From: a virus
Length of the DNA: 23,187 nucleotides
IMG/VR virus record: IMGVR_UViG_3300030508_000073
Span: 1 to 23,187 of that record
Reading direction: 5' to 3' (one strand)
Shown: piece by piece, positions 8,892-23,185 of the stretch
How the letters are laid out: the number at the start of each line of letters is the position of its first letter
Numbering within the stretch: position 1 is the first letter of the stretch
The notes under the pieces: model-generated
What the model saw: only the letters and a program-made list of their open reading frames with translations
The model's database searches: none
What the model was told of the DNA's origin: nothing
Program-made: the position numbers and the translations under genes

Positions 8892-9542
8892 TTACTGGTT
8901 TTGTGTGTTTTGTGTGTGTTCCGTAGAATCATTAACTATCTGTTTAACCATCCGCTTCGCTAACTTTTTACCGGTAGGAAAATCTTCGAGAAGTGACCCG
9001 TAAAGCTGACCCCAGGCACTTTGCAAACCTTTCGTATGATTAAAAGGATCAAGAACAAAACATTTAGACTCTCCAGTATATACCTTACCAGTAACTGGAT
9101 GTGTAAATGATACTTTGGTTGATCCGCCGTTAGGAAAAATATAATTAGTATGCCGGGCATAATTTTCAGCTATACCACCAGCAATTTCATTCAGAACATC
9201 CAATTCTCGTCTTGCATGAAGTTGATGTACTGGTTGAAGTACATCCTGGCACATACGCTTAAACTTTGAAAGGGCATGGACATATTGAGCTTTATTGGTT
9301 GCCCCCAATCTTCTCAATTTTTCCTTCCACACATTTGTCAATGATACACCATCCCAGTCACTAAACCGCTTTACTTCAACGTTTACAGTGTAATTCAATT
9401 TTTCCAGAGTAGTACGAATTGTGGTTGGCTTTTCCAGATTCTCAAAAATGTCAGCCAGCACAATCACATTTGTATCTGTAACTTTGCCAAGCCATTTCCT
9501 TTTTGCTGGTTTCTTTTGTTTGTCTTCTACTTTTTCATTCAT
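8892..9542 (-). CDS. Hypothetical protein, 216 aa
   Basis: Not recognised. A basic N-terminus (EDKQKKPAKRKWLGK) is followed by a mainly helical body with a short His/Arg cluster (QPVHQLHARREL) and a segment with Gly and Asn turns (YIFPNGGSTKVSFTHP). No catalytic motif is visible. Its ATG overlaps the stop of the MYG1-like gene as ATGA, so the two are translationally coupled and may act together. Confidence 0.7.
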   Translation of the reverse strand: MNEKVEDKQKKPAKRKWLGKVTDTNVIVLADIFENLEKPTTIRTTLEKLNYTVNVEVKRFSDWDGVSLTNVWKEKLRRLGATNKAQYVHALSKFKRMCQDVLQPVHQLHARRELDVLNEIAGGIAENYARHTNYIFPNGGSTKVSFTHPVTGKVYTGESKCFVLDPFNHTKGLQSAWGQLYGSLLEDFPTGKKLAKRMVKQIVNDSTEHTQNTQNQ

Positions 9543-10525
9543 AATTCATTTTGTTTGGTTGCTGCTATTGCTAGTTTTGTTGCTCCTTCTATTGTTTTTG
9601 CGGTTGCCAGGAATTGAGCAGAATGACAGAATATTGCCTCTTCTACTCCCGAAATTGCTTGAAGTTTTTGGTCAGTTAATCCTGCCCATTCTTTAGGAAA
9701 TGGTATTCTAAGATTTTCCGGGCCATTACTTTGATTGCCATCCATTCTGACTGCTGTGACTACATGAGCAGTTTTTTCCTGGTTAGGAAATATTACATGG
9801 GTTATATGAGGATGGTCTTTTACCACATCATACCAAGTACAAAACTCCTCTAAGTATAAGAAAGGACTATGCTTGCTAATCCTAGCTTCGATATAAGGCT
9901 TGGCCAGAATCTCACTAGCCTTCTTTAAGATCAATCTAGTAAGCACAATACCAGCAGTACCAACCGCTAGTTTAAATGCATCATCATCTAAATCATAGCC
10001 TACTAAAGGAATTGGATTAAAACTACTTATAATTGATTGAATTGTAGCTACTTCACAAATGAGTTCTGAATGACTACTATTTCTAGCTACAATGTTTAGT
10101 TGACCTTGGTCCTGCCAATCAATACTTTTGACGAAGTTATCAACTTTATCAACAACATCAAATTCTAAGTTGGAGTCATAAATCTTTAACTTCTGCATAC
10201 AATCATAAAGAAGATAACTTACAACTTGCCAACCATGAGCTAACCAGACTAGACCAAATGAGCTATAGAGTGTCCCATCCTCCCTACAACTATTAAATCC
10301 AGGTTGGTGATGATCAAACTTACCATTAAGAGCATCATACTCACCCCCAACGTCTACCAAATAATCAGCACCTATCCAATCAACAGGATCACGACTTCTT
10401 ATTACCGTTACAGGGATCTCTTCAGAATAAAGTAGTTGAAGGGTGGCACAAGCAAATACTTCATCGGCGTGAAAAATTCCTGTATGGGTCACTATAGTTA
10501 TTTTTTCAGTTTTTGGCTCTTCCAT
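9539..10525 (-). CDS. MYG1 (UPF0160) family metal-dependent hydrolase
   Basis: 328 residues, close to the full family length. The N-terminus carries the metal-site signature: THTGIFHADE (His14, His19, Asp21), VDVGGEYD (Asp58) and FDHHQ (Asp71, His72, His73). MYG1 proteins belong to the DHH-like phosphoesterases; the eukaryotic member is described as a 3'-5' RNA exonuclease of nucleolus and mitochondria. The product here is probably a manganese-dependent nuclease acting on RNA or short oligonucleotides. All metal residues I can check are present. It follows the Cys-repeat gene by 3 nt and is coupled to the 216-aa gene. It lies near the tRNA/tmRNA island, which fits an RNA role (inference). Confidence 0.85.
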   Translation of the reverse strand: MEEPKTEKITIVTHTGIFHADEVFACATLQLLYSEEIPVTVIRSRDPVDWIGADYLVDVGGEYDALNGKFDHHQPGFNSCREDGTLYSSFGLVWLAHGWQVVSYLLYDCMQKLKIYDSNLEFDVVDKVDNFVKSIDWQDQGQLNIVARNSSHSELICEVATIQSIISSFNPIPLVGYDLDDDAFKLAVGTAGIVLTRLILKKASEILAKPYIEARISKHSPFLYLEEFCTWYDVVKDHPHITHVIFPNQEKTAHVVTAVRMDGNQSNGPENLRIPFPKEWAGLTDQKLQAISGVEEAIFCHSAQFLATAKTIEGATKLAIAATKQNEL

Positions 10526-10528
10526 AAA

Positions 10529-11044
10529 TCAGATTTTGGTTTTGATAATGTGTTCAACCAGATTGATTAACTTCTTATACTGCTTACCAAACTTATTGTT
10601 TTTATGAGTCTTTTCTACTTTGTTTTTGAACTCAGTCAAATTTCCTGTAAAACAACCACAATCTACTTGAACATTCTTTCCTACCCAATAAATGGTAGTT
10701 TGAGCGTTTCTAGAACCAATTTTAGAAGAAGTAAATCTTTGTGGGTTAGATTTGAAACCAATACAAGTAATACAACTTATACAATCTCTACAATCTCTAC
10801 AATAATTACAACTATTACAATCTCTACAATCATAGCAACCATTACAACCTTTACAATAAATACAATCATTGCAATATCTACAATTACTACAATTATTACA
10901 ACTACTACAATTATCACACCAACCACAATCAATACAACTAGTACAACCGGTTAGGGTAGGTGAGTATAGAGTAGCTAATTCTTCTGATAACCAGCTATTA
11001 TTGTTTTCGTCATACCATCTATTATATCTTTTTGTTATTTTCAT
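10529..11044 (-). CDS. Cys-triplet-repeat protein, copy 3, with C-terminal domain
   Basis: 171 residues from the Met at 11044. This start is chosen because it matches the other family heads; the frame is open six codons further to 11062. The head (YNRWYDENNNSW) is followed by 21 C-x-x triplets (CTS CID CGW CDN...). Unlike the other copies it has a C-terminal domain of about 70 residues (IGSRNAQTTIYWVG, VDCGCFTGNLTEFKNKV, KLINLVEHI). I have seen similar short domains at the ends of phage proteins with repeat N-termini but cannot name the family with certainty. The start lies inside the end of the upstream gene (23-nt overlap). tRNA-Cys lies about 250 nt upstream. Confidence 0.87.
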   Translation of the reverse strand: MKITKRYNRWYDENNNSWLSEELATLYSPTLTGCTSCIDCGWCDNCSSCNNCSNCRYCNDCIYCKGCNGCYDCRDCNSCNYCRDCRDCISCITCIGFKSNPQRFTSSKIGSRNAQTTIYWVGKNVQVDCGCFTGNLTEFKNKVEKTHKNNKFGKQYKKLINLVEHIIKTKI

Positions 11045-11273
11045 AGTATTCAAAAGCTTCATCTAATTGTTTTAAAGCCTGGTCACGTTTTGACCCTTCC
11101 TTATACTTGAGATTAATACCTTTATTACCAGTAAGTCCAATATACAACCATGCTTTAAGTAGATCTCTAGGTTGAGGTGATGGACTATCAAACTCATTAT
11201 ATGCATAATAATTAGTTATAGCTGATAAAACTAACCTATGTCCATCTATAAATATAATTTTAGAATTTTTCAT
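11022..11273 (-). CDS. Hypothetical protein, 83 aa
   Basis: Not recognised. A short beta-type start (SKIIFIDGHRLVLS) is followed by a helical region with many Tyr, Lys and Glu (KRDQALKQLDEAFEYYENN). The leader ACAAAACTAAAACAATG is the typical A-rich start region of this genome. It is directly downstream of tRNA-Cys and its end overlaps the start of the third Cys-repeat gene, so the two are coupled. Confidence 0.7.
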   Translation of the reverse strand: MKNSKIIFIDGHRLVLSAITNYYAYNEFDSPSPQPRDLLKAWLYIGLTGNKGINLKYKEGSKRDQALKQLDEAFEYYENNKKI

Positions 11274-11660: not shown

Positions 11661-12072
11661 TGGTGGACGTGGTTGGATTCTCACCAACGTGTTTACTTCA
11701 AAACAATATGATTTCTACAAGCTTAGCCAGAATTTTAATACTAGAATAAGGAACTGACTCAACCTTAGCTATTCCAGTATTTTGTCCTTGTTAATTAGAT
11801 TGTAATAGTACATAGACTAAACTATCACAACTCACTTATAGATTACGGTTCGTTAGTCCCATAAGTTTCAGACCAGGAACCGGTATTGGTTAAACCAACA
11901 CTTCATTGACGGAGGGAACGAACTCATCCGCTTGCGCAGAAATCGCCATCGCTTCATCAAGAATGCTCATTTTGTTAGCATTTAACGTTTGCATTCATTT
12001 TTAGGTAGCCGAGAATGCTTCTACCGCTTGCTGTCATATCTTTCTAAAATAAGTCGATTATGTTACACGCCC
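11661..12072 (-). ncRNA. ssrA: Transfer-messenger RNA (tmRNA) with atypical tag
   Basis: A 412-nt RNA that rescues stalled ribosomes. The 5' GGGCGTG and 3' CACGTCC form a 7-bp acceptor with the G3-U70 pair that specifies alanine, followed by A73 and encoded CCA. The 5' end holds ATCGACTT (conserved D-loop-like region); the 3' region holds CTAAGCTTGTAG, close to the bacterial signature CTAAGCATGTAG. Pseudoknot 1 is formed by GGTAG/CTACC (12021-12025, 12004-12008) interlocked with GCATTC/GAATGC (12013-12018, 11991-11996). Eleven nt later lies the resume codon GCT (11977-11979), the same spacing as in E. coli. The T-loop TGAGAAT is odd: it lacks the usual T55 and C56. Several later hairpins fit pseudoknots 2-4. 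Confidence 0.87.
11890..11979 (-). CDS. tmRNA tag reading frame, 29 codons
   Basis: From the inferred resume codon GCT the frame reads ANKMSILDEAMA, then ISAQADEFVPSVNEVLV and a TAA stop in the loop of a small TTGGT/ACCAA hairpin. It starts Ala-Asn, as in the E. coli tag, but is about three times longer and ends in NEVLV, not an ALAA-like C-terminus. The alternative frame starting at GCA (11990-11992 region) meets a stop after five codons and does not have the right spacing. Whether the tag directs proteolysis or has another effect is unknown. Confidence 0.7.
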   Translation of the reverse strand, partial: ANKMSILDEAMAISAQADEFVPSVNEVLV

Positions 12073-15532: not shown

Positions 15533-15606
15533 CATAATTATATTTCAGATATAACGTCTAGGCTAATCAACTTATTAATCACAATGCAACAAATGTTTAA
15601 CTTAAT

Positions 15607-15685
15607 CATAACGCTCTACCGCTAAGCTACCGGGCAATTCTGTGAAGTGGAATAAAATGGCTGCCCAGCTCGGATTTGAACCGAG
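15607..15685 (-). tRNA. Candidate circularly permuted tRNA gene (halves in reversed order)
   Basis: In transcript order, the 3' half comes first: T-arm CTCGG-TTCAAAT-CCGAG (15669-15685), acceptor strand CTGGGCA (15662-15668), G73 and encoded CCA (15658-15660). A 21-nt spacer (15637-15657) follows, then a 5' half: acceptor strand TGCCCGG (15630-15636), TA, D-arm GCTT-AGCGGTA-GAGC (15613-15627) and TTATG (15607-15611). The acceptor strands form 7 pairs with one G-U. No matching partner lies on the normal side of either half. U1-A72 with G73 resembles Gln or Asn tRNAs. The anticodon arm is unresolved: GTTAT (15608-15612) can pair with ATAAC near 15708, leaving extra loop sequence. Two decayed tandem copies are the main alternative. 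Confidence 0.45.
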
Positions 15686-15796
15686 GTCTTTACTTTAGTA
15701 CATCTGTTATTGTAATTAACTACCTAAACTAATTTTGAACTTAGGGTGAAAACTTGAGCTTCAACCTTATCTTTAACTTTAACTTGAGCTTGAGTT

Positions 15797-16947: not shown

Positions 16948-17343
16948 TTAGTGTTTTGTTAAATAGTTTACTAACATAAGTATCAAGGTTCCTCCAAGCA
17001 ATACAAGAAATAGTTTTAAAACGAAATAAGGATATTTATTTCGGTCCTGTATAGAATTGACGTTATGATGATAATCTTTACGATCTCTACAATATGTACA
17101 ACCACTACAATTATTACAATCACTACAATGACCACAATAACTACAATCAATACAACTACTACAATTACTACAATAAGCACAACTACTACAACTACTACAC
17201 CATCTACAATAACTACAACTACTACAATCACTACAACATCTACAATTAGTTAGGGTAGGTGAGTGTAGAGTAGCTAGTTCTTCCGTATCCCAACTATTAT
17301 CGTTTTTGTCATACCATCTATTACCTCTTTTTGTTAGTTTCAT
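16948..17343 (-). CDS. Cys-triplet-repeat protein, copy 4, membrane-anchored
   Basis: 131 residues. The head (GNRWYDKNDNSWDTEELA) is followed by 18 C-x-x triplets (CRC CSD CSS CSY CRW...), residues about 34-87, including one CRC that breaks strict three-residue spacing. Unlike the other copies it ends in a transmembrane segment (FVLKLFLVLLGGTLILMLV, about 107-125). The repeat would lie on one side of the inner membrane. The ATG overlaps the stop of the C39-like gene as ATGA, so it is co-expressed with a peptidase-like membrane protein. Confidence 0.87.
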   Translation of the reverse strand: MKLTKRGNRWYDKNDNSWDTEELATLHSPTLTNCRCCSDCSSCSYCRWCSSCSSCAYCSNCSSCIDCSYCGHCSDCNNCSGCTYCRDRKDYHHNVNSIQDRNKYPYFVLKLFLVLLGGTLILMLVNYLTKH

Positions 17344-18351: not shown

Positions 18352-18789
18352 TCAGTTTAGTCCTCTTTGTAGTTGATGTTGCTTAAATAAACCTGTATTC
18401 GCCTTAATTAAGTCAGCTGCCTCAAATGGTGAAATGGCCTGACTCGCACCAGCTTGTCTAAGGAATGCTCTAGTAATTTCCTTCTCACTACTTAATTCTG
18501 GAGCAATTCTAAGCATTTGTTGGTAAGCATCTACTACATGATGAGTAGGAAACTTACTTATAATAGGATCAGTAGCTACAAGTTCTTGTAGTAATAATGC
18601 TCTATCCCTGTTCGCTTCAGGAGTATTAGTGTTAGCAGTTTGTAGAAGTTGAATAAGAGTTGATACTTCATTAGTATACAAAACAAGTTTTTCTTGCTTC
18701 TTGACATAAACTGAAGTCATACCTTTACCCATTCGTACTTCTAGTTCACCTTCACTAGCTGTTATCGTGGTATCTGATGTTATTTTCAT
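18352..18789 (-). CDS. Hypothetical protein, 145 aa, perhaps longer with a membrane anchor
   Basis: From the ATG at 18789 (MKITSDTTITASEG; leader TTAAAACAATG) the protein is soluble: a beta-rich first third and a helical rest (LLQELVATDPIISKF, AFLRQAGASQAI). The frame is open upstream for about 40 codons and encodes VRVLAIVLILFIVVV, then LTLVVLAPL, a perfect membrane anchor, without an ATG or GTG. A longer, anchored product would need a TTG, rare start or read-through of the upstream TAA at 18919. Family not recognised. Confidence 0.6.
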   Translation of the reverse strand: MKITSDTTITASEGELEVRMGKGMTSVYVKKQEKLVLYTNEVSTLIQLLQTANTNTPEANRDRALLLQELVATDPIISKFPTHHVVDAYQQMLRIAPELSSEKEITRAFLRQAGASQAISPFEAADLIKANTGLFKQHQLQRGLN

Positions 18790-20402: not shown

Positions 20403-21845
20403 TTAATTAGTTGTTGTTGGTTTTGCTGCTTCAGTTTGTTGAAACGTATCAGCTTGTTTAATCTGAATTTCTTCAGGATTGCTCACTTCCTCAACAATCG
20501 GTACTGCAGTTTTAACTGGAGTATACGTTGCCGGGAGTTCATTTTGTTCTAGTCCCATATATAATTTGTCTTTTGTGAATTTACTGTGTGAAGTTATTAC
20601 TATAGGTAACTTCGTAACCTTTTGAATTTCAGCTAATAAATCTGGAACTTCATATAGCAGGGCCTTATTCTTAGAGTAGGCCTTAGTAAGATTCCAGGCT
20701 TCCAAACCAGCTTCTTCCTTGCAATTGTAACTAAGCAAATCTATACCAGCATAAGTCCAGCAAACTGTACGTACTTCACGATTACTTAAATAATCACAGT
20801 GAGTAACTGCCAGACCATTAAGACCACCGCACTTTTGAATAGCATATTGCAAAGCCATCAAGTCTAAATTACCTACCCTAAGACATCCTTGGAATTTACC
20901 TGTCTTATTATGATCATGTGCTATTAAAGCATTCAAATCATTTGTTTCAGTCAGAAGAGGACCATTACCATGCCTAGTCATAAAAGTCCTGGTAATGCCT
21001 AACTTATAAGTATTCTGTATAGGGATACCTAATATATACAACATATCCATAGCATAGGTAGGAGTAGTATCAGACCAGGTAGTGTAAGGATGAAAACCAT
21101 GAAGTTTATCCAACAATACTCCTTGTGCTCCTTCAAAAATAGGAAGGTTACTGTCTTTGATAATATCAAGACTATGGCAAACGTTGACCTGATTTAACCA
21201 TTCAAGGTAAATATCGTATAGTTGGTTGTTTAATTGAGGTATGTTAAAGGTAAGCATCAAGTCCTCTACTGCTTGACTTTCCAATTTATAATCATGTTGC
21301 AATTCAACGCATTTCAAAAAACAGTATTCATAGATTGAATTAAGAATCTGGAGGACATCACTTTTATGTTTACTTAAATCTCTTACTCTCAAGACCCAAC
21401 TACTACGTTGTCTAGCTAATTCTGCAGTAACTCCAATACCATTTCCAGTACTGCCGTGTACATTTGTGCGAGCTAATTCTCTCATTTGATTCAACGCTAT
21501 ATGGTATAGCGTAGTAATCCTGCAGTTAGGCGATATATGTATGAGAGATAATGGTTTATCTACTCCAAGCTTATACAAGCTGTCAGCCTCATCCATCATC
21601 AATTTAGGCGAGATAATAACTTCACTACCTATATAAGTCCTAGCCCCACTCAAGGTACCAGAACCGAACTGATGGAAGGTGTGATGTCCTGTCTCATTGT
21701 GGACATTGTGGGCAGCTTGGAATCCACCATTATAGCGAACCACCAAATCTGACTTGAAGTGTTGGACTAGACTATCAGTTACAGATCCCTTCCCCTCATC
21801 ACCATAGTTCAATCCAACTAAGATTATAGCTTTTATTTTTTGCAT
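20403..21845 (-). CDS. purA: Adenylosuccinate synthetase
   Basis: 480 residues, longer than the usual 420-460. It makes adenylosuccinate from IMP, aspartate and GTP. The P-loop GDEGKG is at residues 15-20, with Asp16 at the catalytic-base position. The catalytic His is in FQAAHNV, and GSTGNGIG, FEGAQGVLLDKLHG, GITRTFMTRHGNGP and THCD are all in order. The aspartate loop (TGKFQGCLRVG) departs from the usual TGRRRR pattern. Phage PurZ enzymes, which make the diaminopurine precursor, usually replace the catalytic Asp by Ser or Thr; here Asp is kept, which favours the ordinary reaction. The C-terminal 30 residues are a Thr/Gln-rich tail. Probably raises adenine nucleotide supply. Confidence 0.88.
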   Translation of the reverse strand: MQKIKAIILVGLNYGDEGKGSVTDSLVQHFKSDLVVRYNGGFQAAHNVHNETGHHTFHQFGSGTLSGARTYIGSEVIISPKLMMDEADSLYKLGVDKPLSLIHISPNCRITTLYHIALNQMRELARTNVHGSTGNGIGVTAELARQRSSWVLRVRDLSKHKSDVLQILNSIYEYCFLKCVELQHDYKLESQAVEDLMLTFNIPQLNNQLYDIYLEWLNQVNVCHSLDIIKDSNLPIFEGAQGVLLDKLHGFHPYTTWSDTTPTYAMDMLYILGIPIQNTYKLGITRTFMTRHGNGPLLTETNDLNALIAHDHNKTGKFQGCLRVGNLDLMALQYAIQKCGGLNGLAVTHCDYLSNREVRTVCWTYAGIDLLSYNCKEEAGLEAWNLTKAYSKNKALLYEVPDLLAEIQKVTKLPIVITSHSKFTKDKLYMGLEQNELPATYTPVKTAVPIVEEVSNPEEIQIKQADTFQQTEAAKPTTTN

Positions 21846-21886
21846 AGTTTAAGTAATTGTGGTTGTTAATGTTAACTAAAATTGAA

Positions 21887-21909
21887 GCACCTAGTACTAG
21901 ACTAGGTGC
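21887..21909 (-). terminator. Hairpin upstream of purA
   Basis: Perfect 9-bp stem (GCACCTAGT at 21887-21895 with ACTAGGTGC at 21901-21909), 5-nt loop. In the minus direction it is followed by TTCAATTTTAG, a loose T-rich run. It probably ends the non-coding transcript from 21910-22537, 42 nt before the purA start. Confidence 0.6.
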
Positions 21910-22537
21910 AAGCCTTCTCCTTTAAGAAGCACCAATATGCAACTACCTCATCAATCCGTTTTTTGCTTTAAAACTAGAGGTTCCTGTTACACACCGCTTA
22001 AAAAAGAAGACTAAAAGAAGACAGCACTGCAATAATAGGAGGTATCTTAATGCCTAACTAGCAAGAATTAGTCCATTTAACTAATACTGATTGGTTTGCA
22101 GCGATCACGGTTTAATCCTGCAACTCTACATACAGCTAGTCAAGAATCCGCGCTCTACCAGCTTTTCTAGTTAAAAATTATTGCAATGCTGCCTAAATTA
22201 AAGAACTGATGCTGCAACAGAAGAATTCCCGGCCAAGGAACCCTTCTTACTGACTCAATCGTCTTAACAGAACTATCCTTGTATTGACAATTCGGGACAG
22301 TTGGTTAAGAGTGGACAACATAAACAGCTCATGCCATATTGCTATTCAGTCTAGTAAGCCAGATTTAATACAGCACCAGTTCAAAGCTAAAAATATTAAA
22401 GGTAGGTGATTGGAAAATTCCTAACAAACAACCAATCACCTACCTAGCACCAACACTGAAGAGCTTACTCAAAGCTCACACTTTATTCAGTATTAGTATG
22501 TTTCCCCACCAAATTTGACTTTTCAGAAAACTTAATC
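21910..22537 (-). ncRNA. Hairpin-rich non-coding region, candidate structured RNA
   Basis: 628 nt without a credible gene. It holds a series of stems: 22096-22123 (TTGCAG/CTGCAA with inner GAT/ATC), 22220-22246 (11 bp in the minus RNA, using three G-U pairs that would be A-C on plus), 22262-22310 (TCTTAAC/GTTAAGA with an inner near-perfect stem), 22400-22445 (14-bp perfect) and 22461-22477 (GAGCTT/AAGCTC). The G-U pairs show that the minus strand is the RNA strand. A tRNA D-arm-like piece (AGCTGGTAGAGCGCGG, 22148-22163) and a tmRNA-like string (GACTAGCTGTATGTAG, about 22126-22141) are present, but no T-arm or acceptor. A decayed tmRNA/tRNA array or a new RNA are both possible. Confidence 0.4.
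22400..22445. repeat. 14-bp perfect inverted repeat
   Basis: Arms AGGTAGGTGATTGG (22400-22413) and CCAATCACCTACCT (22432-22445) enclose an 18-nt A-rich loop. It is the longest perfect stem in the window. It lies about 90 nt downstream of the stop of the gene 22538-23185 and may be its terminator or the 5' hairpin of the structured RNA region. Confidence 0.65.
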
Positions 22538-23185
22538 TCAGAGCCGTTTAAAGATTCCTTCCCAGGCATTCCAAGAAGGAGGTGACATAAATGTGAAGAT
22601 TCCTTCTCCGGATGTATATTGATCTAGCTGACTCAGTTGCAAGTCGATTTGGATACTGCCAGAACGTAAAAAATGAACTGGTTGTTTGTTAAGATTTACA
22701 GTAGGATCAGTGTCAAAGTCTTCAAAAGCAGTTAACACATGAGTAATAATGCCTTTCTTAGTCTTTTCAAAAATCCAAGCCATATCTCCAGACTCATTAA
22801 ACTTACAATCAATCAACATGTGAAATCTGTTTTCCTTCTGATATGCTGCCAATTCAGCGAGGGTTCTAAAGTTTCCAAGAGCTTTTGTAGGAAGAACAAG
22901 GATGAATTGTAACTTATCTTGAGATACACGAAAGCCTGTAGTAGTAATATGCACTTTGGTATCAGGATCAAGTTCAGTATAATGATAGTTATTATCTCCA
23001 CCACCCATTAACGTATCAATTCCTCGATCCAATGTGATTCTTTCAATTTCACCTAAACACCAACCATCAGTGAACTTGAAAGAAGGCTGTTCCCTTATAA
23101 TAGCTGGAACAACCTCAGTAGCAAACTCTCTGAAAGAGACAATTTTGAGGGTTGGTTCGATTTTTGTTTTAAATATAGATTTCAT
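22538..23185 (-). CDS. Hypothetical protein, 215 aa
   Basis: Not recognised. The N-terminus is basic (MKSIFKTKIEPTLK), the body is mixed alpha/beta with a Gly loop (DTLMGGGDNNYHY) and the segment SGDMAWIFEKTKKG, similar to DGDMAWVFNLVDSYKG in the gene at 8069. The start lies 2 nt from the window edge (CAT at 23183-23185), so the leader cannot be judged, although the Met is followed by a plausible N-terminus. It is the most upstream minus-strand gene of the right part. Confidence 0.72.
   Translation of the reverse strand: MKSIFKTKIEPTLKIVSFREFATEVVPAIIREQPSFKFTDGWCLGEIERITLDRGIDTLMGGGDNNYHYTELDPDTKVHITTTGFRVSQDKLQFILVLPTKALGNFRTLAELAAYQKENRFHMLIDCKFNESGDMAWIFEKTKKGIITHVLTAFEDFDTDPTVNLNKQPVHFLRSGSIQIDLQLSQLDQYTSGEGIFTFMSPPSWNAWEGIFKRL

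Follow-up and report, generated by a model that had tools for sequence, protein, structure and literature searches.

The stretch of DNA analysed in this work (the window, 23,187 bases of a virus record) contains a 692-nt region (21846-22537) between the stop codon of a gene encoding a 215 aa protein (22538-23185, minus strand) and the start codon of the adenylosuccinate synthetase gene purA (20403-21845, minus strand; PF00709, E 1.6e-61; phrog_1211). No open reading frame of 60 aa or more is present in this region, and none of the frames stays open for more than 51 codons. The 215 aa protein could be assigned to no Pfam or PHROG family and had no match in a tblastn search of the phage collection, and close relatives of its gene and of purA were found only in a sister contig of 41,230 bases in IMG/VR, which is 99.2% identical to the window over 4,414 bases. 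Results of our analysis locate in the intergenic region, on the minus strand, a candidate RNA of 651 nt (21859-22509) with predicted ends; its structured part extends from about 22509 to 21887, and perhaps to 21859.

The candidate RNA, the two tRNA genes of the window (tRNA-Cys and tRNA-Ile) and the tmRNA gene are all encoded by one strand, and the nearest tRNA gene (19354-19282) is 2.5 kb away from the candidate RNA. The portion of the sister contig that was read has 15 tRNA genes according to ARAGORN, each of them on the strand of the candidate RNA. Promoter-like sites numbered four in total, as compared to 2.8 +/- 1.7 expected by chance, which is no excess; none was found upstream of the RNA, and the sole site on the minus strand is downstream of it. 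Words of the Bacteroidota promoter type occur 35 times (25.8 +/- 4.9 expected), and none of them is upstream of the RNA.

The phage and its relatives

A portal protein identical (100%) to that of the window is encoded in four contigs, and two more contigs show 99-100% identity over part of it. The four contigs stop at window positions 18,476-18,630, short of the candidate RNA, and the portal-identical contigs overlap the window as far as position 18,484. The end of the sister contig is at window position 18,774, near the ends of those four, and perhaps the contig ends at about 18476-18774 reflect variation or the end of a genome. One portal-sharing contig has matches to families of terminase, tail sheath, and the beta subunit of RNA polymerase, which indicates, as judged from sequence, a myophage that carries RNA polymerase genes of its own. 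A Shine-Dalgarno-like word was found for 14 of the 126 ATG-started ORFs of at least 150 aa, as compared to 10 in shuffled sequences, and T precedes ATG in 71% of these 126 ORFs. Both figures taken together suggest that the host may be of the Bacteroidota type.

Between the window and the sister contig, 37 differences were found, 30 in purA, one in the RNA region, and none in the gene of the 215 aa protein. As many as 29 of them are packed into about 450 bases of purA (21261-21708, minus strand), which suggests recombination. The purA and vWA (phrog_2971) genes have counterparts of 28-36% identity in one mycobacteriophage, one Rhizobium phage and one Vibrio phage. The matches of the vWA protein in genome contigs were bacterial genes, for the most part from actinobacteria, and were left aside.

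Several other features of the window are worth recording. The phage encodes a protein of the MYG1/UPF0160 family (9539-10525, minus strand; PF03690, E 9.5e-55). Genes of small proteins with runs of CxxC units are repeated on the minus strand (1-183, 1248-1619, 10529-11062, and 16948-17343), with nine or ten units in three of the window frames, and 22 more frames with at least six such units are present in the scanned pieces of the sister contig (G001) and of G075. The tmRNA gene (11661-12072, minus strand) is divergent: it scored 78 bits with the family model and was missed by ARAGORN. Its tag may be encoded by a frame of 29 aa, ANKMSILDEAMAISAQADEFVPSVNEVLV, starting at 11979, or by an alternative 5 aa frame starting at 11992. 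A Y-RNA-like element (15583-15710, minus strand) matched the YrlA model RF02553 with 32.0 bits (E 3.4e-5 in a search of 421 bases), below the gathering score of 69, and has a T-arm before a D-arm, as in the YrlA model. As this model responds weakly in 11 of the 14 control genomes, the element is only a candidate. Y-RNA-like elements within about 1 kb of a match to TROVE (Ro60-like) proteins were found in several related phages (W01, W02, G005, G008, and G012).

Predicted fold of the candidate RNA

The preliminary description of this locus had claimed five or more stable stems and had pointed to the minus strand as the RNA because of the G-U pairs in one of them, and the results of folding, as an energy prediction from one sequence, agree with both claims. 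The minus strand of 22509-21859 folds at -223 kcal/mol as compared to -167 +/- 5.5 kcal/mol for 60 shuffled sequences (z -10.2), while the plus strand of the same region reaches z -4.5 (60 shuffles). For the entire intergenic region (22537-21846) the minus strand gave -226.5 kcal/mol and z -10.1 with 20 shuffles, and the plus strand z -2.7. Better folding than in shuffled sequences is thus seen for the plus strand as well, with z from -2.7 to -6.4 depending on the run. Folding beyond that of shuffled sequence and biased to one strand (z -10.2 vs. -4.5) is a general mark of structured RNA, and the candidate displays it. As a reference, the true ROOL RNA of a related phage and the tmRNA of the window gave z -6.1 and z -3.6, respectively (30 shuffles). 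When 660-nt windows were folded on both strands (70 folds), the largest gain over shuffles (-55.2 kcal/mol) was that of the minus strand of the candidate, as compared to a mean of -6.6 kcal/mol (sd 9.6) elsewhere and to runner-up values of -31.1 (a window that includes part of the tmRNA) and -30.6 kcal/mol. When 160-nt windows were used, only the 5' part (22261-22560) stood out, its 5' hairpins doing so on both strands; a weak signal in such windows, which cut domains, is expected if long helices matter. Seven minus-strand stems have at least 12 contiguous pairs with G-U allowed (18, 16, 14, 14, 13, 12, and 12), as compared to a mean of 3.6 and a maximum of 10 in 150 shuffles and to three such stems on the plus strand. 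G-U pairs account for 19 of the 148 minus-strand pairs of probability above 0.8. The fold is robust, as 211 of its 215 pairs were kept with 150-nt flanks on each side and 214 of the 215 at 25 C.

In the 5' to 3' direction of the minus strand, the predicted RNA begins with a hairpin (22498-22448) of 13 bp (22498-22486/22460-22448; p 0.95) and 6 bp (22477-22472/22466-22461; p 0.98), followed by a second hairpin of 14 perfect pairs (22445-22400; p 0.98). Next is a branched domain A of 180 nt (22382-22203), closed by a helix of 14 bp (22382-22369/22216-22203), with an arm (22310-22262; 7 + 8 bp) and a 12-bp hairpin (22247-22219) inside, the loop of the latter containing a self-complementary GGCC. 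The also branched domain B of 176 nt (22194-22019) is closed by a helix of 18 bp with G-U pairs (22194-22177/22036-22019) and contains two inner hairpins (22123-22096 and 22085-22067). Domain C is a long hairpin of 102 nt (22012-21911) with stems of 16, 11, and 5 bp (p 0.96-0.98). The outer helices have pair probabilities of 0.95-0.99, and values in the interior of domains A and B go down to 0.24 and 0.10, respectively. A terminator-like hairpin before purA, claimed in the preliminary description for the segment 21910-22537, is indeed present, but it is located just outside this segment (21909-21887; 9 bp, p 0.99), and the U tract in the sequence that follows it, UUCAAUUUUA, is weak. The start of purA is about 40 nt away from this hairpin.

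The ends of the candidate RNA may form a weak helix of 4 bp (22509-22506/21862-21859; p 0.54). Sequence comparison revealed also that 11 nt of domain B (22090-22080) are a perfect complement of 22497-22487, in an arm of the 5' hairpin; the longest perfect stem in 150 shuffles had a mean of 7.4 (stems of at least 9 only) and a maximum of 12. Possibly, these two segments form an alternative or between-molecule pairing. The sequences of the closing helices of domains A and B resemble each other, and thus their arms could be exchanged. Such an exchange, together with the 11-nt complementarity, could join molecules with each other.

Comparison with known RNAs and search for relatives

A cmscan search of the region with lax filters, up to E 10, gave no Rfam family at E 0.5 or better (the best E was 0.58). 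Its ten matches concern exclusively eukaryotic families (a plant snoRNA, microRNAs, a fly lncRNA, and Giardia U6), and tRNA, tmRNA, group I and II introns, riboswitches, YrlA, ROOL, and GOLLD are all absent from among them.

In its location in a phage near tRNA genes, the candidate RNA meets with ROOL (RF03087), which is likewise phage-encoded, found among tRNA genes, and densely paired. The two are similar also in length, the ROOL model having 574 positions and a solved example 659 nt. However, the ROOL model had no match at E up to 1 in the window and the sister contig, while in the same search it recovered the ROOL RNA of a related phage (G026) with 303 bits. Nine of the eleven words chosen from the ROOL alignment are absent from the candidate RNA, and the two that are present have only 5-6 nt. 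Moreover, the ends of ROOL are joined by a long helix, whereas the candidate RNA is predicted to be a row of separate domains with only the possible 4-bp helix at its ends. In a set of 50 related phage records, G026 was the only one with ROOL over the cut-off, with tRNA genes on both sides. This full-length ROOL RNA (G026:C1:25918-26506; L180 1501-2089, minus strand) is encoded in an IMG/VR phage record with the shared vWA gene. The model of GOLLD (RF02032), another giant RNA of phages and prophages, had no match in the window or the sister contig and exceeded the cut-off in none of the 50 records. Published work describes ROOL and GOLLD as RNAs of phages or prophages that are often encoded near tRNA islands and that form cages made of RNA only; in at least one strain, ROOL equals 16S rRNA in abundance (PMC12286853).

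The only other copy of the RNA that was found, that of the sister contig, differs at a single one of 692 positions, too few for covariation to show. A blastn search of 50,697 phage records gave 23 records that match 3-7% of the query, with E 0.7 or weaker among the matches listed, and a search of 72,556 plasmids gave no match. No homologue of the RNA was found by blastn and nhmmer in the collected phage loci, nothing up to E 5 by nhmmer --max in nine related records plus G081 and G084, and, beyond the sister contig, only short fragments (E 0.03 or weaker) by DNA search of 33 and of 13 whole records. The covariance model R1, built on domain A, found only the candidate itself and the sister contig in 78 + 16 records; the model R2, built on domain B, found in 77 records the same two plus two matches at E 2.1 and 3.8. 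Each of these models is derived from a single sequence, carries about 0.6 bits per position and was used with no independent positive control, and would thus miss remote relatives. A scan of IMG/VR with three DNA words indicated the sister contig and otherwise unrelated places. The ten of these places that were inspected (nine loci) all touch ORFs, mostly long ones, and in all 19 pattern loci the models R1 and R2 gave a match below E 1 only in the sister contig. In a literature search by title, largely limited to open-access papers, no description of the candidate RNA was found.

Certain other regions were considered and rejected as relatives of the candidate RNA. The other large ORF-free folds picked out in related phages (149 of the 234 folds done) are not relatives: the gaps in G081 and G084 look like short genes, and hairpins in one locus (L349) look like terminators. 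Among them is also a region of about 1 kb with few ORFs, located shortly before the tRNA island of a related phage (G003:C1:154830-155911; L197 14830-15911, plus strand), which could be another large RNA. One of its 800-nt pieces folds 44 kcal/mol better than six shuffled sequences, and no Rfam family reached the gathering score in it.

Nature of the candidate RNA and its meaning

The proposal of a new phage non-coding RNA encoded by the minus strand, made in the preliminary description, is supported by the folding statistics, the position, and the absence of coding sequence. We consider it a credible new large phage RNA, modelled from one sequence, whose function we infer. With moderate confidence, we propose that it is an ornate RNA that stands alone, represents a family so far undescribed, and acts in the manner of ROOL and GOLLD without being a member of either, since its length, the independence of purA from such an RNA elsewhere, the neighbourhood of tRNA genes, and the terminator-like end fit this proposal. 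It would be a densely paired non-coding RNA of about 620-650 nt in a tRNA-rich phage, transcribed together with the surrounding tRNA genes and probably ending at the hairpin before purA. The phage setting of ROOL and GOLLD, the cages they form, and the presence of ROOL in a related phage suggest that the candidate RNA probably works like them. If made as a discrete molecule, it would then most likely be a rigid multi-domain RNA that self-assembles through its loops, rather than a regulator of purA. That it represents a third, unrelated family of phage RNAs building a large RNA-only assembly is a tentative suggestion, which we regard as rather unlikely.

The main rival explanation, in our view a doubtful one, is a long 5' leader of purA, which would sense a metabolite, a protein or translation and would gate purA transcription by its last hairpin. 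The RNA and purA are encoded by one strand, the gene starts shortly past the terminator-like hairpin, and the alternative pairing of 22497-22487 with 22090-22080 would suit a switch. However, cmscan gave no riboswitch family up to E 10, the tail that resembles a terminator is weak, and a leader usually needs far less than about 650 nt with several domains. Additionally, purA of the three annotated phages that were inspected, the ones sharing it at 28-36% identity (ET08, RHph_Y65, and phiKT1024), begins at most 100 bases after the preceding gene, with no long leader, which indicates that an RNA of this kind is not a fixed part of purA.

It is quite unlikely that the candidate RNA acts as a scaffold to which a phage protein binds, for example in the way known from Y RNAs and Ro60 (TROVE) proteins. 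Proteins of this kind were found in 7 of the 24 phage records searched, and the window has its own Y-RNA-like element (15710-15583), but a search of the window, of its sister contig and of four other contigs from the same phage gave no TROVE protein, and the candidate RNA had no YrlA match up to E 10.

A non-functional origin, as a leftover or as palindrome-rich DNA that folds by accident, appears very unlikely, although the near-identical sister contig is the only relative found. The one difference between the two copies (22402, C to T on the minus strand) falls in the 14-pair hairpin and turns a G-C pair into G-U, where the plus strand would have A-C. As the pair would be kept in 246 of the 430 transitions possible at paired sites, this single change says little. 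On the other side, the z-score of -10.2, the strand asymmetry, and the G-U-containing stems of 18 and 16 bp argue against accidental folding, as does a single difference in 692 non-coding bases as compared to 30 of the 37 in purA, although the upstream 648-nt ORF is unchanged as well.

A degenerate self-splicing intron or other known catalytic RNA, so diverged that its model fails to recognise it, is highly improbable: the length is similar to that of ORF-less group II introns (about 600 nt), which occur in phages and in 2 of 20 candidates appear intergenic (PMC12350094), but no group I model and none of the group II models (domain 5/6, D1-D4) matched up to E 10, and no gene is interrupted here. 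A diverged relative of tRNA or tmRNA, suggested earlier, is hardly credible, as the region has no match to the tmRNA (RF00023) or tRNA (RF00005) models up to E 10, the phage has its own structured tmRNA elsewhere on the same strand (12072-11661), and the two similarities invoked are at chance level: the 10-mer TTGAGTCAGT does occur in both the region and the tmRNA, but a word of at least 10 in common with the tmRNA arises in 305 of 1000 shuffled versions of the region, and the D-arm-like 12-mer (22163-22152) reaches 22.9 bits against 319 distinct tRNAs of the collected loci, while the mean best score of 336 background pieces of the same phage is 23.35.

Shapes have been solved for the large phage RNAs ROOL and GOLLD, which have no known function. 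With an independent RNA from such a setting, the features that these RNAs have in common could be compared, and since the phage of the candidate RNA shares genes with a ROOL-carrying phage, a replacement of one RNA for the other could be looked for. Should the candidate RNA prove instead to be the leader of purA, it would stand out by its unusual size among regulatory RNAs of phages. If it does represent a third family, such RNAs would have arisen in tRNA-rich phages on at least three occasions, a sign of a common need that is met by shape and not by sequence.
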